DNA of 64,000 nt, taken from an uncultured Desulfovibrio sp. (lineage in GTDB: Bacteria > Desulfobacterota > Desulfovibrionia > Desulfovibrionales > Desulfovibrionaceae). A program made the translations under genes and the position numbers. Positions within the stretch are counted from its first letter, which is position 1. Every line of letters begins with the position of its first letter. This document shows positions 26,687 through 37,610 of the stretch, piece after piece. Under the pieces are notes generated by a model, which was given only the letters and a program-made list of their open reading frames with translations, searched no databases and had not been told where the DNA came from. The stretch is taken from the NCBI GenBank assembly GCA_913060505.1, contig CAJXRQ010000014.1:1-64000 (forward strand). The letters run 5' to 3'.

Positions 26687-27859
26687 TTATTCTCCTTGTG
26701 CGAGCACACGCTCGACTATGTCCATATCCTTGTCGCCTCGGCCGGACAGGTTGACCATAACGTTCAGGCCTTGAAGTTCCTTTGCGTTCTCCAACACCCA
26801 GGCCACGGCATGTGAGCTTTCCAGCGCGGGGATGATTCCTTCACGACGGGAAAGGGTCTTGAATGCGTTGAGCGCCTGCGTGTCGTTGACGTTTCCGTAG
26901 TGTGCACGCCCCATTTTCTGGAGCGCGGAGTGCTCGGGGCCGACTCCCGGATAATCCAGCCCGGCCGCAACGGAATGCGAGGGCATGATCTGACCGTCCT
27001 CAGTCTGGAGCAGTTTGCTTTTGGCACCGTGTAAAACGCCGTCTGTGCCGAGGTTGAGTGGCGCGGAGTTGAAGCATCCGGGCTCACCGGTTCCTGCGGC
27101 TTCCACACCGACCAGTTTCACGGATTCATCCGGTACAAAGGCGTGGAATGCGCCAATTGCGTTGGAGCCACCACCGACACAGGCGCAAACGACATCCGGC
27201 AATGAACCGATGCGGTCCAGGAATTGTTGGCGGGCTTCGCGGCCTACCACGGCTTGCAGTTCGCGCACCAGCAATGGGAACGGATGCGGCCCGGCTGCTG
27301 TGCCAAAGCAGTAATGTGTGGTTTCCTGCGTGGAAATCCAGCACCGCAGGGCTTCATTGATCGCGTCCTTGAGAGTCCGAGTGCCGGATTCGACAGCCAC
27401 GACTTCCGCACCCAGCAGTTCCATGCGCCGTACGTTCAGAGCCTGACGTTCAACGTCCACGGCTCCCATGTAAACCTTGCACCCCATATCCATCATGGCG
27501 GCGGCCGTTGCAGTGGCCACACCGTTCATGCCTGCGCCGGTTTCCGTGAGCAGGGTTTTTTTGCCCATTTTCCTGGCCAGCAGAGCCTGCCCCAACGTGT
27601 TGTTGATCTTGTGCGCACCCGTGTGGTTCAGATCCTCGCGTTTGAGCCACAGATTCACGCCAATATCCTTTGAGAGGTTCGGGCAGAAAGTCAGAGCGGA
27701 AGGGCGTCCCACGCATTCCTTGAGCAACGTCGTAAATTCCTTTTGGAAATCCTCGGAAGCCATGATGGTGTCCATGGCCTGTTCCAGTTCCAGCAGTGGC
27801 GGCATAAGCAGCTCGGGGACGAACTGTCCGCCATAGTCACCAAAATAACCTTTCTTCAT
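26687..27859 (-). CDS. trpB: TrpB, tryptophan synthase beta subunit
   Basis: A 390-residue PLP enzyme that makes Trp from indole and serine. Lys84 in GAHKINN binds PLP, Glu106 in TETGAG is the catalytic acid, CVGGGSNAIG holds the phosphate, and NLSGRGDKDMD ends the protein. The substrate-carboxylate loop, normally GAGQHG, reads GAGMNG (108-113), a notable change. The start at 27859 is set by the family N-terminus (KKGYFGDYGGQFVPE) and a 4-bp overlap with trpF; upstream codons in frame lie inside trpF. Confidence 0.93.
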   Translation of the reverse strand: MKKGYFGDYGGQFVPELLMPPLLELEQAMDTIMASEDFQKEFTTLLKECVGRPSALTFCPNLSKDIGVNLWLKREDLNHTGAHKINNTLGQALLARKMGKKTLLTETGAGMNGVATATAAAMMDMGCKVYMGAVDVERQALNVRRMELLGAEVVAVESGTRTLKDAINEALRCWISTQETTHYCFGTAAGPHPFPLLVRELQAVVGREARQQFLDRIGSLPDVVCACVGGGSNAIGAFHAFVPDESVKLVGVEAAGTGEPGCFNSAPLNLGTDGVLHGAKSKLLQTEDGQIMPSHSVAAGLDYPGVGPEHSALQKMGRAHYGNVNDTQALNAFKTLSRREGIIPALESSHAVAWVLENAKELQGLNVMVNLSGRGDKDMDIVERVLAQGE

Positions 27860-28485
27860 GATGCCTTTCCTTTGTGGGCTGCAATGCGGCCCATGACCGC
27901 TTGCAATTTGGTTGCGTCCTTGATTCCGGGAGCGGATTCCACTCCGGAATTGATGTCCAGTACGGTTGGTTCCTGTTGCAGAATTGGTTCTACGTTGTTG
28001 GGGTCTAGTCCACCTGCAAGAAACCAATTTGTTTTTATTTCAACTTGTTGAAGGTTCGTGAAATCAATGGTTCGCCCATGTCCGCCGCCGCTGGAGCCAG
28101 CGTCGAAGAGCAGGAATGCACATGCCGGAGCAAAGCGGTCTATTTCCATTTGCAGTTCTGCTGGAGAGTCGTAGCGTTCAGGCCACAGTACCTTGATCAC
28201 CCGGTCGGCTCCTACCTCGCGGCAATCGTCCGGGGACTGGCCTCCATGAAGCTGGGCAAAATCAAGGTTGCACCGTTCCATGATGTCCCGGATTTCGTCC
28301 GGCGACTGTCGCACGAATACGCCGACCTTGGCCGCGTTGGGACAAGATGCCCTGGCAACGAAATCCCTGTCAGCGTTTCTCGGGCTGGATTCATGGAAAA
28401 TGAAGCCCATGAAATCAACACCAAGCTCACAGCACAAATGTACATCCTGTTCGCGGGTGAGTCCGCAAACCTTGACCTTGGTCAT
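27856..28485 (-). CDS. trpF: TrpF, phosphoribosylanthranilate isomerase
   Basis: A 209-residue TIM barrel. It opens TKVKVCGLTREQDV with the catalytic Cys, has GFIFHESSPRN, the DFAQLHG core, LLFDAGSSGGGHGRTIDF with the catalytic Asp, and FLAGGLDPNNV and DINSGVESAPGIKD as phosphate-binding ends. It overlaps trpB by 4 bp and trpC by 4 bp. Confidence 0.95.
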   Translation of the reverse strand: MTKVKVCGLTREQDVHLCCELGVDFMGFIFHESSPRNADRDFVARASCPNAAKVGVFVRQSPDEIRDIMERCNLDFAQLHGGQSPDDCREVGADRVIKVLWPERYDSPAELQMEIDRFAPACAFLLFDAGSSGGGHGRTIDFTNLQQVEIKTNWFLAGGLDPNNVEPILQQEPTVLDINSGVESAPGIKDATKLQAVMGRIAAHKGKAS

Positions 28486-29252
28486 TCCTTTGCTCCGGTC
28501 AGTTGGGCCAGCAATGTGGCCGGATCGTCGGCCAGCATCAGGCTGGTGCCGATGAGCACGGCATCAAAGCCAAGCTCGGCCATTTCCACTATCTGTGCAC
28601 GATTATCCACGCCGCTGGCGCTGATCCATAGCTCCCCATCCTGTTTGTCCATGAGGCGGCGTGAAATGTCCAGCGTGGTTGTCAGTGTATTCAGGTCGCG
28701 GTTGTTGACCTGAATGATTTTCGCTCCGGCTTCGCGCGCCGATTCAAGATCGGACTCGTCAAAGACTTCGGTCACGGGTTCCAGACCGGCCGCTTCGGCC
28801 AGTTGTACCATCTGGCGCAGTTCATGGCTGGAGCCGAACATGCGGGCGATAAGCAGTACCGCGGATGCCGGGCTGGATGCGGTCATGGCCACCTGAAGCG
28901 GGTCAATGATGAAGTCCTTGCGCAACAGGGGCAATCCACGGTCCGCGCACATGAACAGATAGTCGGGGTGTCCCTTGAAGTATTGGGATTCCGTAAGCAC
29001 ACTCATTGCCGCCGCGCCGTTTGTCGCATAGGTATCTGCATAATCCAGTGGATTGGCGTGTTCCCGCAAGACTCCTTTGGACGGTGATGCCGGTTTGAAT
29101 TCCGCAATAACGGCACCCGGTCCTTTGGCCCGGATGGCATTGGAGAAGCTCGGCCTGTTTCCCTCATAGACAGCCGGAATACGGCCTTCCATGAATTCGT
29201 CGTGCAGTGCCGCGATTTCTTCCTGTTTTGCGGCTCGGAACTTATCCAACAT
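28482..29252 (-). CDS. trpC: TrpC, indole-3-glycerol phosphate synthase
   Basis: A 256-residue TIM barrel: VIAEFKPASPSKGVL (substrate-binding Lys), AAAMSVLTESQYFKG, LPLLRKDFIID with the catalytic Lys, IIQVNNRDLNTL, and WISASGVDNR with FDAVLIGTSLM. It is a stand-alone enzyme rather than the fused TrpCF of enterobacteria. The start overlaps the trpD end by 11 bp, with AAGGGG eight bases upstream. Confidence 0.95.
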   Translation of the reverse strand: MLDKFRAAKQEEIAALHDEFMEGRIPAVYEGNRPSFSNAIRAKGPGAVIAEFKPASPSKGVLREHANPLDYADTYATNGAAAMSVLTESQYFKGHPDYLFMCADRGLPLLRKDFIIDPLQVAMTASSPASAVLLIARMFGSSHELRQMVQLAEAAGLEPVTEVFDESDLESAREAGAKIIQVNNRDLNTLTTTLDISRRLMDKQDGELWISASGVDNRAQIVEMAELGFDAVLIGTSLMLADDPATLLAQLTGAKE

Positions 29253-30252
29253 TGGGCAACCCCTTTGTCAGGCCCTGATTGACTGCATCACGGGCTTTGT
29301 CCGCGCATTCCCGCAGCGGTTCCTCTTCCAGCAGGTGCAGGCAGACGGCCAGGTTTACGGCCACCATGTCCATCATGGCCTGTGGGCCTTTGCCTGCGAG
29401 GATATTGCGCATGACGGCAACTCCCTCTTCCTTGTCCTTGACGCGAACATCTTCCGGCGAGTGGGTCGGGAAGCCGAGGCGGTCAGGGTTGACTGTTGTC
29501 TTTTCCATGATGCCGTCGTGCAACAGGTAACCTCGTGCCGGACCGAAGGTGGTCACTTCGTCGAAACCGCCTGCCCCGGCTATGACCATGGCCCGTTCAA
29601 TACCTGTCAACAGCAGGGCTTCACCCATGATCTGGAGTTTTGAAGGATCGCCAACTCCCAACAGCTGGTGCGTCGGGCGGGCCGGGTTGAGCAGCGGTCC
29701 CATGAAGTTGAACAGGGTGCGAATGCCCAGTGCCTGACGAACGGGCATGATGTGCTTGAAAGCCGGGTGGTAATGCGGTGCGAACAGGAACGCGAAGTTG
29801 GTTTCATCCAGTGAACGGGCGGCATATTCAGGATCTTGCATCAGGGGGATGCCCAATGCTTCGAGTACATCGGCGCTGCCGCAGGAAGAAGACACGGAAC
29901 GGTTGCCGTGTTTGGCTACCTTGTAGCCCATATCCGCAAGGAACAGGGCCACGGCCGTGGAGCAGTTGAAGCTCAGGGAACCGTCGCCGCCGGTACCGCA
30001 AGTGTCGATGACTGGTACGCCGACACTTCCGTCCGAATAGCCGGGGATGGCACGCGCATGGTCAAGACCTGCACGGACACCCGAGGCCAGATCCGTTGAA
30101 TCCTCTCCTTTGGCACGCAGCCCCATGAGGAATGCCCCGGCTGCAGCCGGGTCCATTTTGCCGTCCATGAGCATGCCGAACGCCGTATCAGCCTGCAAAT
30201 CCGTTAGCTCGTTGCCTAGTGCCAGTTGTTCCAATATTTCCGTAATAGTCAT
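29242..30252 (-). CDS. trpD: TrpD, anthranilate phosphoribosyltransferase
   Basis: A 336-residue enzyme with the PRPP-binding DTCGTGGDGSLSFNCST, KHGNRSVSSSCGSADVLEALG, FAPHYHPAFKHIMPVRQALGIRTLFNFMGPLLNP and the acidic FDEVTTFGP. It is a separate gene, not fused to trpG. The start at 30252 is preceded by GGAG, and the family N-terminus (TITEILEQLALGNEL) begins there; the open frame to 30351 belongs to trpG. Confidence 0.95.
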   Translation of the reverse strand: MTITEILEQLALGNELTDLQADTAFGMLMDGKMDPAAAGAFLMGLRAKGEDSTDLASGVRAGLDHARAIPGYSDGSVGVPVIDTCGTGGDGSLSFNCSTAVALFLADMGYKVAKHGNRSVSSSCGSADVLEALGIPLMQDPEYAARSLDETNFAFLFAPHYHPAFKHIMPVRQALGIRTLFNFMGPLLNPARPTHQLLGVGDPSKLQIMGEALLLTGIERAMVIAGAGGFDEVTTFGPARGYLLHDGIMEKTTVNPDRLGFPTHSPEDVRVKDKEEGVAVMRNILAGKGPQAMMDMVAVNLAVCLHLLEEEPLRECADKARDAVNQGLTKGLPNVG

Positions 30253-30263
30253 GACTCTCTCCT

Positions 30264-30836
30264 TTATGCGGATATTTTCAAGAAGTTGTCGAGCAGTTGC
30301 GGCCCCTTGGGGGTCAGAATCGACTCGGGGTGGAACTGGACGCCATGCCATGGCCTGTCCCTGTAGCGCAGGCCCATGACTTCATCACGATCGGCAGTCG
30401 CCGTGATTTCCAGTTTCTCCGGGGCTTCCCCGGCCCGTACGGTCAGGGAATGATAGCGGCAAACTTCCATGCCGTCAGGGATACCCGCGAACAGACCTTC
30501 ACCGTTATGGAAGACCTTGGAGGTCTTGCCGTGCATGATTCTGTAGTTGCGGTCCACGGTGGCTCCGGCAAACGCACCGAGGCATTGGTGGCCGAGGCAC
30601 ACGCCGAGAACCGGCACTACGGGCGGCAACTGGGCCAGAAACTCCAGGCAGTACCCGGCGTTGTACGGGGTGCTGGGGCCGGGAGAGATGCAAACCCGTT
30701 CCAGTTTGCCGTTGCCTGCCAGTTCCAGCAGTTCGGGCCTGTCGTTGCGGATAACCACAGGATCCGCGCCCAGCTGCTGAAATGCCTGCACCAGATTGAA
30801 GGTGAACGAGTCGTAATTATCTATGAGTAAAAACAT
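30264..30836 (-). CDS. trpG: TrpG, anthranilate synthase glutaminase subunit
   Basis: A 190-residue class I glutamine amidotransferase: LLIDNYDSFTFNL, ISPGPSTPYNAG, the nucleophile in VLGVCLGHQCLG, and the catalytic HPES in WHGVQFHPESILT. It supplies ammonia to TrpE for anthranilate synthesis. It overlaps the trpE end by 20 bp and has GGGAG upstream of the ATG. Confidence 0.95.
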   Translation of the reverse strand: MFLLIDNYDSFTFNLVQAFQQLGADPVVIRNDRPELLELAGNGKLERVCISPGPSTPYNAGYCLEFLAQLPPVVPVLGVCLGHQCLGAFAGATVDRNYRIMHGKTSKVFHNGEGLFAGIPDGMEVCRYHSLTVRAGEAPEKLEITATADRDEVMGLRYRDRPWHGVQFHPESILTPKGPQLLDNFLKISA

Positions 30837-32256
30837 CGCCAGCTCCCTTGCCGGTTATGACTTCGAGAAGCACCCGAGCCTTGTTGTTGCATTCCTGCCA
30901 TTCCTTTTCCGGGTCCGAGTCGTAAACAATTCCTGCACCGGCCTGCCAGTTGCATTCGCCATTGCGGATCCACATGCTGCGGATAGTGATGCCTGTGTCC
31001 AGACTCACGGTTTCCTTACCCAGCCCCATCCAGCCGATGCAGCCGCCGTATGGTCCGCGCTCCTGCCGTTCCAGGTCGGCGATGATTTCCATGGCCCGAA
31101 CCTTGGGCGCACCGGACAGTGTTCCCGCCGGGAAAGTGGACTGCAACACGTCGATGGCGTCCATATCTTCCTTGAGGTCTCCTTCTACATAGGAAGTCAG
31201 GTGCATGACGTGTGAGAAACGCTCTACGTTCATAAACTTGCGCACTTCCACGGTACCGGGCTTGGCGATGCGGCCAAGGTCATTACGCCCGAGGTCTACG
31301 AGCATGACGTGTTCGGCGCGTTCCTTGGGATCGGCCAGCAGTTCCTTTTCCAGTTCAAGGTCTTCCTTTTCGCTGTGCCCTCTGGGGCGTGTACCTGCAA
31401 TAGGTCGAACTTCAAGCGCCCCTTTGTCGCAGCGGACCATCATTTCCGGGGAGGAACCGAGTAATATCGTTCCGGACTGCACAGACTTGGGGAAGCGCAT
31501 GAAGAACATGAATGGTGAGGGATTTGCCTGCCGGAGCCTGCGGTAGATGCGGAACGGATCATCGGGAACCGGTACCGAGAAGCGGGTGGACAGCACGACC
31601 TGAATGCATTCGCCTTCGGCAATGAGTTCCTTGGCCTTTTCCACCGCAGCCATATATTGTTTCTTGCCCGGGTGCATGGTGGGAGTACCCGCTTCGGGCG
31701 CAGCCAGATCCATGCCCCATTCCGTGGCGGCCGGACGTGGCGTGGCTTCCTTGTCCAGGCTCAAATAACAACAGGAATGGCGCAGGTGGTCGAAGAGCAC
31801 CATCTGGCCGGGCAGGACCATGCAGGCCTCAGCTTTTTCCGGGGGGAGAACCTGTGCCAGTTTCGGTTCAAACATGCCGCCTGTCCCATATCCGAAGTAA
31901 CCATATAAACCTCGGGTCAGGCCGGGCAGGCCGTCGCGACCTCCGTTTGCTTCCTGCTCCACATCAACGAGACGGGAAACGCGGCGCAAGCCTTCAAGAT
32001 AATCCATACCTTTCAAAGCCTTGAGGCCCTGTAGCCGGTTGTCGTTGATGTCCATGGCCAATTTGCCGCCCACCGGATGCAGGGTCAGGCGGAAATCCCA
32101 GGCAATGAGGCTATAGCGGCCAAGTCTGCCGTCCACTTCTGCGGATTCAAGAAGAATGCCCGGTCGGTCTCCGACCAGCCCGAGGTACAGGCTGATGGGC
32201 GTCTGTACGTCTGCCGGGAGCCATTTCCCGTATTGTTTCAATTGAATGGGGTCCAT
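30817..32256 (-). CDS. trpE: TrpE, anthranilate synthase component I
   Basis: A 479-residue chorismate-using enzyme. The Trp feedback site LLES is present (35-38), so the enzyme is probably inhibited by Trp. Catalytic blocks include SSPEMMVRCDKGALEVRPIAGTRPRG, EHVMLVDLGRNDLGRI, SHVMHLTSYVEG, and TFPAGTLSGAPKVRAMEII with GAGIVYDSDPEKEW. The start is preceded by GGAGGAACA. A terminator with a T9 tail lies only 21 bp upstream of the ATG, as expected for an attenuated gene. Confidence 0.95.
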   Translation of the reverse strand: MDPIQLKQYGKWLPADVQTPISLYLGLVGDRPGILLESAEVDGRLGRYSLIAWDFRLTLHPVGGKLAMDINDNRLQGLKALKGMDYLEGLRRVSRLVDVEQEANGGRDGLPGLTRGLYGYFGYGTGGMFEPKLAQVLPPEKAEACMVLPGQMVLFDHLRHSCCYLSLDKEATPRPAATEWGMDLAAPEAGTPTMHPGKKQYMAAVEKAKELIAEGECIQVVLSTRFSVPVPDDPFRIYRRLRQANPSPFMFFMRFPKSVQSGTILLGSSPEMMVRCDKGALEVRPIAGTRPRGHSEKEDLELEKELLADPKERAEHVMLVDLGRNDLGRIAKPGTVEVRKFMNVERFSHVMHLTSYVEGDLKEDMDAIDVLQSTFPAGTLSGAPKVRAMEIIADLERQERGPYGGCIGWMGLGKETVSLDTGITIRSMWIRNGECNWQAGAGIVYDSDPEKEWQECNNKARVLLEVITGKGAGDVFTHR

Positions 32257-32277
32257 TGTTCCTCCGTTGTCTGTTGT

Positions 32278-32312
32278 AAAAAAAAAGGCCGCCTCCCGGA
32301 GGAGAGCGGCCT
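32278..32312 (-). terminator. Intrinsic terminator between tyrA and trpE (attenuator stem 3:4)
   Basis: On the minus strand AGGCCGC pairs with GCGGCCT, with CTCC/GGAG extending the stem, followed by nine T. It stands 43 bp after tyrA and just before the trpE ribosome site. Full termination here would silence six downstream genes, so conditional read-through is implied. Confidence 0.9.
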
Positions 32313-32378
32313 GGCTTTCGTTTTATCTGCCGTGCTTCAGGCGCAATCCTCCATTCATGTTTCGTTGCGCCACCACCA
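32286..32378 (-). promoter_or_regulatory. Candidate Trp attenuator using the 3' end of tyrA as leader peptide
   Basis: The last codons of tyrA are TGG TGG TGG CGC AAC GAA ACA TGA, so the protein ends WWWRNET. Segment 1 GGCGCAA (32365-32371) starts at the third Trp codon and pairs perfectly with segment 2 TTGCGCC (32340-32346), with the tyrA stop codon in the loop. GGAGGA in segment 2 (32347-32352) can instead pair with TCCTCC (32298-32303) in the left arm of the terminator. This is the arrangement of the E. coli trp attenuator, but with an enzyme gene in place of a leader peptide. The pairing is read from sequence; the mechanism is inferred. Confidence 0.72.
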
Positions 32379-33119
32379 CTGTGCCAAAGATGCCAGAAGA
32401 TCCATCTCGCCACCGGCGGCAAGGCTGAACAGGGTCATGAACTGGCGAGCGGTTTCCTGCAGGTAGGGGTTTGCGTCCGCAATGGTTTCAAAAAGTTCAC
32501 TGTCCTTGGTGAACATTTTGCGGGCCGCTTCCAGCCTGCGGTTGAATGAGGGAGTTACAAAGTTTTCAATGCCGGGGAACCGTCCGGCAGCTGCGAGATA
32601 AGCCGCCGTGGTCGTAAAGTTGAGCCCCTGAATGAAGGCCATGGCCTTGTCGTGTTCGGCAGCCGTGGTCGTGAACGGCTCGAAGCTTGCCTGCCGGAAT
32701 AGCTTTGCGATCCGTTCGGCCTGTTTTGCGTGTTTTTCCCTGCCGGGCATTACCGCGACCCTGGGCGTGAAGCCTTCGGGAATGGCCGGGCCGAATAGCG
32801 GATGAGTACCGACGACGGGGCCGTTATGGGCCTTGAGCATGACTCGCAGGGGCAGCTCCTTGACAGAACCCACGTCTGCAAGCACAGCGGTGTCGTTCAT
32901 GTGCGGCATGATGCTTTCCAGCACTGACTTCATGGCTGTTACCGGAACACAGAGCAATACGAGTTCGCTCCGGCTCAGGGCGTTGCGTATGGCCGTATCC
33001 TCAAACGGACGGTCAAGTTCGGCCACAGTGCAGCCCAACTCCCGAAATCGTTTCGAGAACAGGCCGCCCATTTGGCCTTTTGCGCCCACAATGGCCATAT
33101 GCTGGAATTCTGGTTCCAT
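32355..33119 (-). CDS. tyrA: TyrA, prephenate dehydrogenase
   Basis: A 254-residue NAD(P)-dependent enzyme: HMAIVGAKGQMGGLFSKRF is the dinucleotide fold, LVLLCVPVTAMKSVL and LADVGSVKELPLR follow, then VVGTHPLFGP with the catalytic His, and TAAEHDKAMAFIQGLNF. It makes hydroxyphenylpyruvate for Tyr. The start at 33119 has GGAAGG in the end of aroA. The protein contains no Trp except three in a row at its C-terminus (AQWWWRNET), which fits the attenuator described at 32286-32378. Confidence 0.9.
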   Translation of the reverse strand: MEPEFQHMAIVGAKGQMGGLFSKRFRELGCTVAELDRPFEDTAIRNALSRSELVLLCVPVTAMKSVLESIMPHMNDTAVLADVGSVKELPLRVMLKAHNGPVVGTHPLFGPAIPEGFTPRVAVMPGREKHAKQAERIAKLFRQASFEPFTTTAAEHDKAMAFIQGLNFTTTAAYLAAAGRFPGIENFVTPSFNRRLEAARKMFTKDSELFETIADANPYLQETARQFMTLFSLAAGGEMDLLASLAQWWWRNET

Positions 33120-33120
33120 C

Positions 33121-34485
33121 CTATTGGCCTTCCAGTACCTTTTCCCACTCATCAAAGAATTGGGGGAATGATTTGCCTACGCAGGCGGGGTTGTCGAGGT
33201 CCGGGTTGATGCCGGAAAGTTCAAACAGGGACATGCTCATGGCTATACGATGGTCCCCGTAGGTTTCAAAATCAATAGCCGTGCCGGATTCAAGCGGCGC
33301 GGGCGTGATTTTCATACCATCTTCGAATTGTTCCACAGAACAGCCCGTCTTGGCAATCTGTTCCGCGCAGGCCAGCAGCCTGTCACATTCCTTGATGCGC
33401 AGGTGCGCGACGTTGCGGATGGTCGTGGGGCTGACTGCATGCGCTGCCACAACGGCAATCGTGGGGACCAGATCCGGGCATTTGCCCATGTCCACGTTGA
33501 TGCCCCTGAGCTTGCGCGGGTAGATGGTGATGCCCTTGTCCGGGGTCACATTCAGGCCCGCCCCCATTTGCGCCAGAATGTCGATGATGGCACTATCGCC
33601 CTGAAGGGAATCCGGGCGGATGCCCTGAACCTTGACCGGGTGCTTGCCGATGGCTCCTGCGGCGAGGAAGTAGGAAGAGTTGCTCCAGTCGCCCTCCACA
33701 CGGTAGTTGGCAGCCTCATACCCGGACGGCTCCACATGGAAGCGCAGGGCGCCGGGGTCCACCTGCCGGATTGAGCGCCACGGAACTTCCATCCAACGGC
33801 CTTCCTGAAGGATTTCCACGGCAAACTTGGCCTTGAAGTCCTCCATGATCTGGAGGGTGAGAGCCACATACGGCCAGGAAACGGCCTTTTTGCCGGAAAC
33901 CGTGATCAGTATTGGTTTTTCGGAAAGGGGAGCGCCAAGCAGCAGGCCGGAAAGGTACTGGCTGGATTCCTCAAGGGTGATATCCACGACTTTCTTGCGG
34001 TAGCCCTTGGTTTCCATGATGAACGGCAAGTGTCCTTCCTGCCCTTGGAAATCAAATTGTACGCCGAGGTGGGAGAGGGCTTCCACCAGTTCCTTCATGG
34101 GACGTTCGTGCATGCGCGGTGCGCCGTGTACATGAAATGTGCCTTTTCCTGCCGCGGCAACGGCGGTCATGATGCGGCAGGTGGTGCCGGATTCATGCAT
34201 GAAGAGTTCATGCGGTTCATCGTTGCGGTTGCGGCCGTCATGATTGCCGCCGCGGGGACCATCTTCCATGCCTTGTACCTGGATGGCTCCATCTTCGGTC
34301 TCCGAGAAGCTCGCCCCGCAGGCGATCAGGCAGTTTTTCGTACGCATGATGTCATCCGAATCCAGAAGGCCGGAAATGACGGATTGTCCCTTGGCCAGCG
34401 CTCCGGCTATCAGTGTCCGATGGGACAAGGACTTGGATGCCGGTGCCTGAACCGTGATGATGCCGTTGGGATTGCTGGGTGTCAT
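33121..34485 (-). CDS. aroA: AroA, 5-enolpyruvylshikimate-3-phosphate synthase
   Basis: A 454-residue enzyme that joins shikimate-3-phosphate and PEP. Visible are APASKSLSHRTLIAGALAKG (PEP/S3P binding), MHESGTTCRIMTAVAA (corresponding to GNAGT, here ESGTT), the loop MHERPMKELVEALSHLG, LRIKECDRLLACAEQ, and ETYGDHRIAMSMSL. The Asp-rich insertion near residue 80 (RGGNHDGRNRNDEP) is unusual. It ends one base before the tyrA start. Confidence 0.92.
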   Translation of the reverse strand: MTPSNPNGIITVQAPASKSLSHRTLIAGALAKGQSVISGLLDSDDIMRTKNCLIACGASFSETEDGAIQVQGMEDGPRGGNHDGRNRNDEPHELFMHESGTTCRIMTAVAAAGKGTFHVHGAPRMHERPMKELVEALSHLGVQFDFQGQEGHLPFIMETKGYRKKVVDITLEESSQYLSGLLLGAPLSEKPILITVSGKKAVSWPYVALTLQIMEDFKAKFAVEILQEGRWMEVPWRSIRQVDPGALRFHVEPSGYEAANYRVEGDWSNSSYFLAAGAIGKHPVKVQGIRPDSLQGDSAIIDILAQMGAGLNVTPDKGITIYPRKLRGINVDMGKCPDLVPTIAVVAAHAVSPTTIRNVAHLRIKECDRLLACAEQIAKTGCSVEQFEDGMKITPAPLESGTAIDFETYGDHRIAMSMSLFELSGINPDLDNPACVGKSFPQFFDEWEKVLEGQ

Positions 34486-34489
34486 ACTT

Positions 34490-35587
34490 TTATTCTCCGC
34501 CGTCCGTACGCGCGGAAGGGTAGGTTCCCAAAACGCGCAGGGTATGGCACTGCTCTCGCAGCATGTTCAAAATTGATTCGTGCTCGGCTTTGGACAAGTC
34601 GCATTCCAGGTCCGTAAAGAAGACATACTTCCACTTTTCGCCGCGCACCGGCCGGGATTCCAGCTTGGTCATGTTGATGCCGTTTCCAGCCAGTGTGTTC
34701 AGGATTTTTGCCAGCGCACCGGGGCTGTCCGGCGTGGTGAACAGGATTGACGTCTTGTCTCGCTCGTCTTCCCGGCAGGGAGACGGAGCGATGACCAGAA
34801 AACGTGTCCAGTTGTCCGGATGATCCTCGATTCGTTCGGCAAGAATGTTCAAACCATGCATTTCGGCCAGTTTGGAATTGCCCACGATGGCGATGGTTCC
34901 ATCCTGGGTTGCGGCCTCTGCGGCCGCCGCCGTGGACGTTGTGGTGTTGCGCGGGAGTTCGGGCAGCTTGGCGTCCAGCCATTCCCGGCATTGTTCCAGC
35001 GGTTGCGGGTGGGAAAGAACGCTTTTCACACTGTGCATATCGTCGGCAAGACTCATGAGGCAGTGGCTGATGCGGCTGTATATTTCGCCCTGAATGAAAA
35101 CAGGATATTTCATGAACAGGTCCGCGACCTGGCCTACGGTTCCTTCCAGGGAATTTTCCAGCGGAATAACACCCAGTTCGGCACCTTCATCGGCCACGGC
35201 CCGGAAGATTTCCTCAAAAGTTGCCTTGGGGGTCAGGTACTGGGAGTGTCCCATGTGGCGTAGCGCCGCAAAATAGGAAAATGTTCCTTCAGGTCCGAGA
35301 TACACCGTGCGTTCCGGGCGTTGCAGCCTGCGGGAGGAAGACATGATCTCCCTGTAGATGGCGCGCAGATGTTTTTCCGGCAGCGGTCCCGGATTGCCAT
35401 CGGCTATCTTGTTCATGACTTCCCGCTCCCGGAAAGGCATGTAAATGGGCTCGTTGTTGTCCGCTTTGTGGCGGCCTACTTCAAGGCTGACCTGGGCGCG
35501 GGCGTTGAGCAGATCGACAAGCTTCTTGTCCAGCTTGTCGATGCGCGACCGCATATTGTTGAGAGGTTTATCGGTCTTGTCCGCCAT
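34490..35587 (-). CDS. pheA: PheA, chorismate mutase/prephenate dehydratase
   Basis: A 365-residue bifunctional P-protein. Residues about 10-95 are an AroQ chorismate mutase (NNMRSRIDKLDKKLVDLL, VGRHK), about 100-275 a prephenate dehydratase (YLGPEGTFSYFAA, VIPLENSLEGTVGQVADLF, NTTTSTAAAAEAA), and about 290-365 an ACT domain with PGALAKILNTLAG and ESRPVRGEKWKYVFF, the Phe-binding regulatory site. The start at 35587 follows AAGGAAGG; the open frame beyond lies in aroB'. Feedback inhibition by Phe is expected from the ACT motifs. Confidence 0.95.
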   Translation of the reverse strand: MADKTDKPLNNMRSRIDKLDKKLVDLLNARAQVSLEVGRHKADNNEPIYMPFREREVMNKIADGNPGPLPEKHLRAIYREIMSSSRRLQRPERTVYLGPEGTFSYFAALRHMGHSQYLTPKATFEEIFRAVADEGAELGVIPLENSLEGTVGQVADLFMKYPVFIQGEIYSRISHCLMSLADDMHSVKSVLSHPQPLEQCREWLDAKLPELPRNTTTSTAAAAEAATQDGTIAIVGNSKLAEMHGLNILAERIEDHPDNWTRFLVIAPSPCREDERDKTSILFTTPDSPGALAKILNTLAGNGINMTKLESRPVRGEKWKYVFFTDLECDLSKAEHESILNMLREQCHTLRVLGTYPSARTDGGE

Positions 35588-35591
35588 GAGC

Positions 35592-36575
35592 CTAGCCTTC
35601 CTTGATTTCCTCGGTAATGCGCATGCCGAAATGGCGCCCGGCCTGATCCGTTCTGACCAGCAGTTTGTCGCCAGCTTTGACCTTGACCACGCTGACGGGT
35701 TCACCCTCCGGCGAAACAACCCGGATGGTTTCGGCGTTTTGCAGAAAAACCTGTCCTTCCCGGACGCCGTCCTTGGTTTTAATTTCCGCCTTGATGAGCA
35801 GCATGGGCCGGACTTCCACCTTGCAACGGCCCACCGTGGCCAGTGATGACGAACCGTCATGGCCTACGACCAACACTTCTGTGCCGGAAGTCAGTTCTTC
35901 AAGGTAACTGGTCTTGTCGCCGGGCATGGCGCAATAGGCGTGCACGGCTCCGGCGTTGATACGGAACGGGCGTGCTGCCACATAGGGGTTGGATTCGGTT
36001 TCCGCATGAACCAGAAAAGTGAAGGCGGAAGAGTTGCCCACCAGCATGCCTTGTCCTTTGCGCAACATGCTTGTGGTATCCACGCACACGCGGTGTCCAA
36101 GACCTGCAGGCCGGATTTCCGTTACAACGGCGGTTTCGAGTTCCATGGTCCCCTGCGAAAGTTTGAGTTCCTTGACGATCTGTTTCAGGTCGGAAGCCGC
36201 TTCCGGCAGCACCACGATGGTATCGGCGCCACGTTCCAGCACACCGGCTGCCAGTATGGCCCGTTCCAGCGATTCGGCCTCAAGGGCCAGCGTGTCCACT
36301 TGAGCGAGGATGTTTTCCACCGGAATGATTTCCCATCCCTTTTCCAGAACAATGGACTCGCCTTTCTGGATACGTTGTACGGCCACTTCCTCATCGGATT
36401 TTTCATTCACCGGCTGGCTGGGCATCTGGTCCGGGGTGATGACTTCGACACGGCCAAGGCTTTTGACGCCCTTGACGTGTTCGGGTTCCACCATAACGGC
36501 GTCTACGCCGGATTCCAGAGCCAGTGTGACCAGTGTTTTGTCGTAGGGAATGGCCTTGAAAATAATGCGTTTCAT
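35592..36575 (-). CDS. aroB': AroB', 3-dehydroquinate synthase II
   Basis: A 327-residue archaeal-type 3-dehydroquinate synthase, unrelated to the classical AroB. Seen are SGVDAVMVEPEHVKGVKSLGRV, LETAVVTEIRPAGLGHRVCVDTTSM, GMLVGNSSAFTFLVHAE, RPFRINAGAVHAYC, and LLIKAEI. It turns the AroA' product into 3-dehydroquinate. The aroA'/aroB' pair replaces the DAHP synthase/AroB route and is characteristic of Desulfovibrio among bacteria. It lies 18 bp after aroA'. Confidence 0.93.
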   Translation of the reverse strand: MKRIIFKAIPYDKTLVTLALESGVDAVMVEPEHVKGVKSLGRVEVITPDQMPSQPVNEKSDEEVAVQRIQKGESIVLEKGWEIIPVENILAQVDTLALEAESLERAILAAGVLERGADTIVVLPEAASDLKQIVKELKLSQGTMELETAVVTEIRPAGLGHRVCVDTTSMLRKGQGMLVGNSSAFTFLVHAETESNPYVAARPFRINAGAVHAYCAMPGDKTSYLEELTSGTEVLVVGHDGSSSLATVGRCKVEVRPMLLIKAEIKTKDGVREGQVFLQNAETIRVVSPEGEPVSVVKVKAGDKLLVRTDQAGRHFGMRITEEIKEG

Positions 36576-36593
36576 GTCTGGTTCGGTCCTTTG

Positions 36594-37391
36594 TTATTCG
36601 CCGGCGTGGGCGAGAGCTTCGTCAACTTCAATATCCTGATGCACAACCATGTTCAGCGCTTCCACCAGGCGGGTGGGATCCTTGTGCTGGAACACGTTGC
36701 GTCCAACGGAAAGTCCTGCGCCACCAGCCTGAATCGAGTCATGAACCATAGTCAGGAAATCCCGGGTGCTGTCAAGTTTGGGGCCGCCGGCGATAACGAC
36801 AGGAATGCAGCATGCGTCAGTGACATGGGAAAAGGTTTCAGGGTCGCCCGTGTAACAGACTTTGACGACGTCTGCCCCCAGTTCCGTGCCGACGCGGGCG
36901 CAGTGAGCAACGACTTCAGGATCGTACTCGTTTTCAATCTTCGGTCCGCGTGCGTAGACCATGGCGAGAAGGGGAATACCCCAGTTTGCGGCGTCAGAGG
37001 CCATTTTCCCGAAGTCGTTGAGCATGGTGGCTTCCGCTTTGTCTCCAAGATTGCAGTGGATGCTGATGGCGTCCGCGCCAAGGCGGATGGCGTCTTCTAC
37101 GGAGCCGACAAGGGTTTTTGCATTGGGTAGCGGAGAAAGGCAGGTGGAAGCGGAAAGATGAACGATGAGGCCGATGTCTTTGCCTTCGGCACGATGGCCG
37201 CAGCGAACCAGGCCTTTGTGCTCGATTACGGCATTGGCACCGCCTTCCACCACTCGTCCCACGGCCTGTTTCATGTCCACGATACCGTCGATGGGACCGA
37301 CCGTGACACCATGATCCATGGGGACGATGATTGTTCTTCCCGTATTGCGGTTGAAGATGCGCTCCAACCTGATGGCTTTCCCGATATGCAT
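36594..37391 (-). CDS. aroA': AroA', 2-amino-3,7-dideoxy-D-threo-hept-6-ulosonate synthase
   Basis: A 265-residue class I aldolase of the FbaB/DhnA family: [55 protein letters not shown] with the Schiff-base Lys, PVVIAGGPK, and [16 protein letters not shown]. It makes the first intermediate of the alternative aromatic route. It is the first enzyme gene of the 12-gene operon, preceded by AAGGAG and by the leader-peptide attenuator. Confidence 0.92.
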
Positions 37392-37448
37392 GTTCTCTCT
37401 CCTTGAGTATTCCCTCGAACCCGGGGGACTCAGCCTCGGCAGCCGGAT

Positions 37449-37486
37449 AAAACAAAAGGGCCGCCGGCTTGATGCCCGCGGCCCTT
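37449..37486 (-). terminator. Intrinsic terminator in the aromatic operon leader
   Basis: AAGGGCCGC (37478-37486) pairs with GCGGCCCTT (37456-37464), then TTTTGTTTT follows. It lies between the leader peptide and aroA', 58 bp before the aroA' start, and must be read through for the operon to be expressed. Confidence 0.92.
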
Positions 37487-37610
37487 GGAAGTTCTTTTTC
37501 GTGTACCTGTCTTTCGGCTACAACGCATCCCTTCCGTGCCCGCGGGCATCGGTAAACCAGTACCAAAAATACAGGTAGGAAAAGAGGTTGTTGCTGAAAA
37601 GTTTGTCCAT
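37471..37610 (-). promoter_or_regulatory. Aromatic amino acid attenuator (antiterminator)
   Basis: GATGCCCGCGG inside the leader-peptide gene (37540-37550), just after the aromatic codon run, is perfectly complementary over 11 bp to CCGCGGGCATC (37471-37481), which is part of the terminator's left arm. A second 7-bp pairing joins TACCTGT within the codon run (37571-37577) to ACAGGTA after the leader stop (37504-37510). A ribosome held at the aromatic codons would leave the 11-bp antiterminator free to form; one reaching the stop codon would cover it. Possible -10 TATAAT at 37666-37671 (minus strand). Confidence 0.85.
37518..37610 (-). CDS. Aromatic leader peptide (Phe/Tyr/Trp)
   Basis: A 30-codon ORF starting ATG at 37610 and ending TAG at 37518. 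Nine of its residues are aromatic, and seven of eight at positions 12-19 are: YLYFWYWF, containing Phe, Tyr and Trp codons together. The next codons (DARG) form the antiterminator segment. The ribosome site is weak. It sits at the head of the aro-phe-tyr-trp operon, so it is best explained as an attenuator leader peptide sensing all three aromatic aminoacyl-tRNAs. Confidence 0.85.
   Translation of the reverse strand: MDKLFSNNLFSYLYFWYWFTDARGHGRDAL

Follow-up and report, generated by a model that had tools for sequence, protein, structure and literature searches.

A probable trp attenuator within an aromatic supraoperon of Desulfovibrio, with the 3′ end of tyrA as its leader-peptide coding region

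The window analyzed here is the whole stretch of 64,000 nucleotides taken from an uncultured Desulfovibrio sp. (assembly GCA_913060505.1, contig CAJXRQ010000014.1). Its minus strand carries a supraoperon encoding ADH synthase, 3-dehydroquinate synthase II, chorismate mutase/prephenate dehydratase, EPSP synthase and TyrA, followed by trpE and further trp genes (Table 1). The genes behind trpE are presumably trpG, D, C, F and B, identities that we assigned from the ORF translations. TyrA matches the NCBIfam prephenate dehydrogenase models below their cut-offs, and the best NCBIfam match of TrpE is TIGR00564 (trpE_most), with 445 bits against a cut-off of 518. TrpR was found in none of 81 genomes of the order, whereas E. 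coli, the control, was positive.

Table 1. Coordinates of the genes and of the observed and predicted regulatory features in the window.
Feature	Coordinates	Strand	Basis or remark
Entrance leader ORF, MDKLFSNNLFSYLYFWYWFTDARGHGRDAL	37518..37610	minus	ORF before first gene (37391)
Entrance terminator hairpin (37486-37456) and T-rich tail	37447..37486	minus	predicted fold
Upstream block as a whole	33121..37391	minus	ORFs and profile searches
ADH synthase	36594-37391	minus	
3-Dehydroquinate synthase II	35592-36575	minus	
Chorismate mutase/prephenate dehydratase	within 34490-35860	minus	
EPSP synthase	33121-34485	minus	
tyrA (prephenate dehydrogenase)	32355..33119	minus	enzyme gene, 3′ end as putative leader ORF; PF02153 above cut-off
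Three tandem Trp codons (putative control codons)	32370..32378	minus	sequence; codon table over relatives
Rest of tyrA tail, CGC AAC GAA ACA TGA	32355..32369	minus	sequence
1:2 hairpin proposed earlier, GGCGCAA/TTGCGCC	32340..32371	minus	present, not conserved
Segment 2 (antiterminator left arm), GGAGGAUUGCGCCUG	32338..32352	minus	pairing tests, predicted fold
Segment 3 (antiterminator right arm, overlaps terminator left arm), CAGGCCGCUCUCCUCC	32298..32313	minus	pairing tests, predicted fold
Terminator hairpin (segments 3:4)	32286..32312	minus	-20.1 kcal/mol
T9 tail of terminator	32278..32286	minus	sequence
trpE Shine-Dalgarno sequence, GGAGG	32265-32261	minus	
trpE, first gene of the putatively controlled block	30817..32256	minus	PF00425, PF04715; start ATG at 32256
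trp genes downstream of trpE, presumably in the order G, D, C, F, B	26687..30836	minus	ORF list

The tyrA gene ends in TGG TGG TGG followed by four further sense codons and the stop (32378-32355), and the intergenic region behind it contains a strong terminator hairpin that ends 21 nt ahead of the trpE start codon. This distance leaves hardly any room for a promoter, so that the terminator must be passed to reach trpE. Segment 2, which begins 16 nt after the Trp run, can pair with segment 3 through GGAGGA (32352-32347) and TCCTCC (32303-32298), and additionally through GC/GC and GCCUG/CAGGC, giving 13 pairs in the predicted duplex; 12 of the 13 appear in the predicted fold of a 62-nt piece. 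Since the 2:3 helix and the 3:4 terminator share segment 3, they are mutually exclusive. The 2:3 pairing in the window is better than that of 200/200 dinucleotide shuffles. An earlier sequence-only reading of this DNA had described much of this layout. Translation of the 254-residue ORF bears out that TyrA ends in three Trp residues, with Trp codons only in this tail; the terminator with its T9 tract before trpE was confirmed; and the proposed GGAGGA/TCCTCC pairing exists, as part of a longer helix than had been recognized.

The exact 24-nt tail of tyrA occurs once in the 3.16-Mb assembly. The word TGGTGGTGG occurs 103 times, counting the two strands together, and was discarded as a family-wide search word in its own right, being too common to be informative. 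A scan of the window against Rfam returned only a tRNA at gathering score and matched no attenuator family; the six matches up to an E-value of 10 in positions 32200-32480 do not include the Trp leader. A consensus terminator scan gave 19 sites against 14.5 expected, with the terminator before trpE represented only by a short sub-hairpin, and was therefore left out of the evidence.

The same reading had also proposed a 1:2 hairpin. The complementarity of GGCGCAA (32371-32365) and TTGCGCC (32346-32340) is present, and it is at chance level, with 12 of 100 shuffles equally good in the window and only 4 of 87 relatives reaching 5% or better (median z 0.26). Run on E. coli trpL, the same script detects a strong 1:2 pairing (z -3.35, 1 of 200 shuffles as good). 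Local folding between the Trp codons and the terminator is likewise not above that of shuffles (median z 0.09). We thus rejected the 1:2 pairing as a conserved element. To our knowledge, a 1:2 pause or anti-antiterminator hairpin is not a defining feature of all amino-acid attenuators.

TyrA was matched in 176 of 199 genomes of the window's family and in 139 of 150 genomes of an order sample. To examine its 3′ region, 134 sequences were collected, 110 from the window's family (out of the 176 genomes) and 24 from five other families, made up of the closest matches and a hand-picked spread over genera; in this sample, tyrA of one genome (G215) was not readable in the assumed frame. Regions were scored by a script that looked for a Trp run, a segment 2 that could be measured and, within 110 nt, a strong hairpin with a T tract, and that skipped those with fewer than two tandem Trp codons or with the stop more than 75 nt away. 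It passed 89 regions, from which two rows of genus g9 (L103 and L110) were dropped as spurious, since their segment 2 followed after 1-2 nt and their stop only after 54 nt. The remaining 87 of the 134 regions show the tyrA-tail architecture and represent 25 genera in six families (66/110 regions in the window's family and 21/24 in the other five).

The run comprises three or four Trp codons in 86 of these 87 regions and two, the minimum for detection, in one. The distance from the last Trp codon to the start of segment 2 has a median of 16 nt (quartiles 15-17, range 7-23, n = 87), and that from the last Trp codon to the stop varies from 9 to 39 nt (n = 87). Over genus means, the former distance spreads by about 3 nt, and distances to the stop spread by 8 to 10 nt. 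Segment 2 lies within the tyrA coding sequence itself in many genera. The terminator follows the Trp codons at a median of 59 nt in the relatives. This geometry fits a sensor that would be tied to the Trp codons, not to the end of the gene.

The pairing of segments 2 and 3 reaches the 5% level or better (at least 95 of 100 shuffles beaten) in 77/87 regions, dinucleotide shuffles having been used for 64 of the regions. When the segments of 25 genus representatives were swapped among genera, none of 50,000 permutations paired as well as the segments' own combinations, nor did any of 20,000 permutations with 13 genus representatives. The compensatory change that the sequence-only reading had asked for in the paired segments was thus found for 2:3. 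The loss of the three Trp codons with retention of the terminator, which it had named as evidence to the contrary, was seen once and in a weak form, in f3g54, where two Trp codons precede a terminator. A genus's own segment 3 is its best partner in just 12 of the 25 genera, and in g20, f4g55, g36 and g3, 8 to 13 foreign segments pair better than the own one. The stop in g20 is only 9 nt after the Trp codons, so that a terminating ribosome would hardly get to segment 2.

TrpE was sought in 20 genomes, mostly ones without an attenuator behind tyrA. It was matched in 17 of them and not in the other 3; four of the matches lie behind tyrA, 12 lie elsewhere, and one (G240) is a distant homologue without tandem Trp codons. 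All 12 relocated trpE genes are directly preceded by a short ORF with two or three tandem Trp codons and then a terminator, as exemplified by MNVFSNTISNSFKGWWWRIQLRGGDVRA in g40 and MLNAFSLTFSAYRWWWRVVDVKGGVRPA in g6. These dedicated trp leaders, which occur in genera g40, g42, g6, g12, g26, g5 and f4g47, share with the tyrA tail the tandem Trp codons, the spacing of segment 2 and the terminator before trpE, and differ in that they are ORFs of their own. Segment 2 begins 14-17 nt behind the Trp codons in 11 of the 12, the script giving 5 nt for G005; in two genomes, G073 and G092, the 2:3 pairing is no better than 14 and 20 of 100 shuffles, respectively. A dedicated leader of g6, WWWRVVDVKGGVRPA, resembles the tyrA tail of g38, WWWRSHTERGGVRPS. 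As a separate observation, one region (L165, genome G053) has two successive leader-like ORFs with two or three tandem Trp codons, at about -635 and -226 upstream of trpE, as if the attenuator had been duplicated.

The three Trp residues are also part of an enzyme. TyrA ends in three Trp in 24 of 25 genera with the attenuator and in 10 of 20 without it (p 0.0009 by genus, kinship ignored), and has no Trp ahead of the tail in 25 of the 31 representatives that carry the attenuator versus 6 of the 21 that lack it (p 0.0004 by row, kinship ignored). A Trp-free body would let ribosomes reach the tail under Trp shortage. The tree provides two pairs of well supported independent contrasts, too few to allow for kinship, and on these the associations are not significant. 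One Trp residue of the tail is kept nearly everywhere, and this, together with the triplet in half of the attenuator-less genera, indicates that part of the tail is constrained by the protein. The proposal that the tail is regulatory therefore has to be narrowed, as the tail is not solely regulatory. Tandem Trp codons in TyrA where no terminator follows would suit an alternative explanation, in which the hairpin merely stops part of the transcripts without any regulation, keeping aro and trp mRNA in a constant proportion, and the Trp triplet is a structural motif of TyrA. We consider this very unlikely, since it gives no role to the conserved sequence that is complementary to the terminator arm and keeps its distance from the Trp codons, and dedicated leaders with tandem Trp codons occur where trpE sits elsewhere.

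A second alternative is that the leader is a separate short peptide started within tyrA, rather than the enzyme itself. An in-frame ATG at 32411-32409, the eleventh codon before the Trp triplet in the window, would yield MDLLASLAQWWWRNET. In the other rows of the codon table this codon is CTG, TTG, CTC, ATT, GTC, ATC, GTG or ATG, some of which could act as weak starts, and no conserved internal start codon was found near the tyrA tail of the relatives in that table. As the start codon is not kept, a hidden separate leader was judged highly improbable, even more so than a plain partial terminator. Least probable of the alternatives is control by Rho or by translational coupling of tyrA and trpE in place of alternative RNA folds. 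In 13 sampled genera the two genes lie side by side, or almost, with no terminator between them, and coupling may exist there; against this alternative stand strong intrinsic terminators with T tracts, together with competing helices, in 87 regions. Genera such as g25, g41, g31, g37 and g43 seem to have lost the attenuator: tyrA runs almost up to trpE or overlaps it, no terminator is present, and there are often two Trp codons for three.

We consider it very probable that the leader peptide of a trp attenuator inside the operon, ribosome-mediated and acting in cis, is encoded by the 3′ end of tyrA, and that this attenuator is nested within one for all aromatic amino acids. The use of the tyrA end as leader of a trp attenuator had been the central claim of the sequence-only reading, and it held up, with the 2:3 and 3:4 helices as alternatives and compensatory change across six families. 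From these features we infer the following response to Trp. A ribosome trailing RNA polymerase through tyrA would meet the three Trp codons just ahead of the stop. With ample charged tRNA-Trp it would run to the stop, where the terminating ribosome would cover part of segment 2; segment 3 would then be free to form the 3:4 terminator, and transcription would end before trpE. With Trp in short supply, the ribosome would stall on the Trp codons, its footprint ending just upstream of segment 2, which could then pair with segment 3 and let the polymerase enter trpEGDCFB. Judging from known ribosome footprints, segment 2 would stay free while a ribosome is stalled on the last Trp codon and would be covered once the ribosome has advanced. 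The upstream genes, which are needed also for Phe and Tyr, would be untouched by this switch and would lie behind the separate Phe/Tyr/Trp-rich attenuator at the entrance.

The entrance leader ORF precedes the first gene, and the left arm of its terminator can form 11 bp with GAUGCCCGCGG of the leader. All 30 of the genomes chosen for comparison carry a Phe/Tyr/Trp-rich ORF at this entrance, in which 6-9 out of ten residues are aromatic; shuffles reach six in ten in 1 of 600. Phe, Tyr and Trp are all present in 29 of the 30 leaders, and a terminator lies within 200 nt in 28. Leaders of the ilvGMEDA type are multivalent, with codons for several end products. The entrance leader resembles them in this respect; they differ in serving branched-chain, not aromatic, amino acids, and do not imply a second, internal attenuator. 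A table for D. vulgaris lists one attenuator, ahead of aroA′, taken from a prediction database (PMC1173090). It concerns the same supraoperon and corresponds to the entrance attenuator here; that table names neither an attenuator between tyrA and the trp genes nor a leader peptide (PMC1173090).

Expression data from D. hydrothermalis, for which an RNA-seq paper lists the same gene order (PMC4162548), bear on the position of the two control points. At 10 versus 0.1 MPa, trpE, trpG and trpD are down by about 2.6-2.7 log2 (PMC4162548, Table 1); the five upstream genes all fall short of significance, which is not to say that they are unchanged, and trpC and trpF are likewise below significance (PMC4162548). 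At 26 versus 0.1 MPa, the whole cluster from the aldolase to trpF is down by 2.5-3.9 (PMC4162548). The experiment was designed around pressure; its tabulated values would fit two control points, one at the entrance and the other at the tyrA-trpE junction.

Of the features of ribosome-mediated amino-acid attenuators of the E. coli trp type, the element has tandem Trp codons in a translated ORF, an intrinsic terminator before trpE and a mutually exclusive 2:3 antiterminator. Judged by all sequence tests except that of the 1:2 hairpin, it appears to be a real cis-acting trp attenuator, which would work like that of E. coli. It shares with E. coli trpL the tandem Trp codons, the 2:3 and 3:4 helices and the position before trpE, and the spacing is similar, the same script placing segment 2 at 14 nt and the terminator at 54 nt in trpL (medians 16 and 59 here). 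The 2:3 pairing is stronger here (median z -2.8, compared with -1.07 in trpL). Unlike in E. coli, the putative leader sits within an operon and forms the end of an enzyme of 254 residues, and the 1:2 pause hairpin seen there has no conserved counterpart. The tyrA-trpE junction has no short leader peptide of its own in a 5′ leader, a form that was seen only in genomes with a relocated trpE. Lacking both a dedicated leader and the 1:2 hairpin, the element falls outside the narrow E. coli design.

Textbook amino-acid attenuators have throw-away leader peptides. The papers of Vitreschak 2004 and Merino 2008 reportedly deal with trp attenuators. Among the open-access PMC papers listed by our searches, none was seen to describe a tyrA-tail trp attenuator. 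The ampC attenuator lies inside the end of the frd operon and thus also overlaps the end of an upstream gene, but is not an amino-acid-specific sensor with control codons. In Chlamydia YtgCR, a WWW motif inside a real protein gene likewise senses Trp for trp genes; as described there, stalling lowers the YtgR repressor and so acts in trans, whereas the tyrA tail would act in cis on the next gene (PMC7755916).

In a TyrA tree calculated without the tail, one group (starred) unites g6, g12, g26, g40 and g42, all with dedicated leaders, and the two tyrA-tail genera g21 and g38. The tyrA-tail form is taken as the older one, being present in all six families, although the tree is unrooted and gives no proof. 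We tentatively suggest, rating it a little below an even chance, that an enzyme gene has served throughout an order as the leader of its neighbor's attenuator, that this is the older state, and that, when the trp genes departed (at least in the g6/g12/g26/g40/g42 clade, g5 and f4g47), the tail was rebuilt as a dedicated leader or became the source of one. Together with the entrance leader, the arrangement would form a two-step cis circuit that responds to all aromatic amino acids and then to Trp alone, without TrpR. If this is true, leader peptides can be born from the tails of enzymes. With sensor codons in a working enzyme, protein evolution and regulation would share the same few codons, and a single transcript could be divided, with no repressor involved, into one part for all aromatic amino acids and one for Trp only. 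Intact, relocated and lost versions all occur in the order, making the origin and loss of leader peptides directly testable. Attenuators of this class would escape searches that are limited to short ORFs in intergenic leaders.

A further conserved element was observed between the attenuator and trpE in L005-L008 and L010-L016. It is an ORF of 25 codons, the fifth of which is an in-frame TGA, of the pattern M-x-x-T-[TGA]-K-x-x-E-N-R-K-K-I/V-K-G-W-x-V-I-P-R-P-Y-H, and is found in 23 of 36 genomes of the genus of these regions and not in the window. The TGA is present in 23/23, a Shine-Dalgarno sequence stands in front, and a hairpin spans codons 16-23. Among the 11 examined, the codons after the TGA vary mostly in the third position, with the residues kept. 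The mini-ORF has no match in Pfam or NCBIfam. It looks like a case of recoded UGA (selenocysteine, Trp or read-through). A selB match above cut-off is present in 34 of the 36 genomes of this genus; for a selenocysteine reading, the hairpin lies rather far away, about 33 nt behind the TGA. Remnants of the mini-ORF (ATG AGG GAC ACA TGA AAG ...) occur in L009, L017 and L018, where TGA AAG is still kept.
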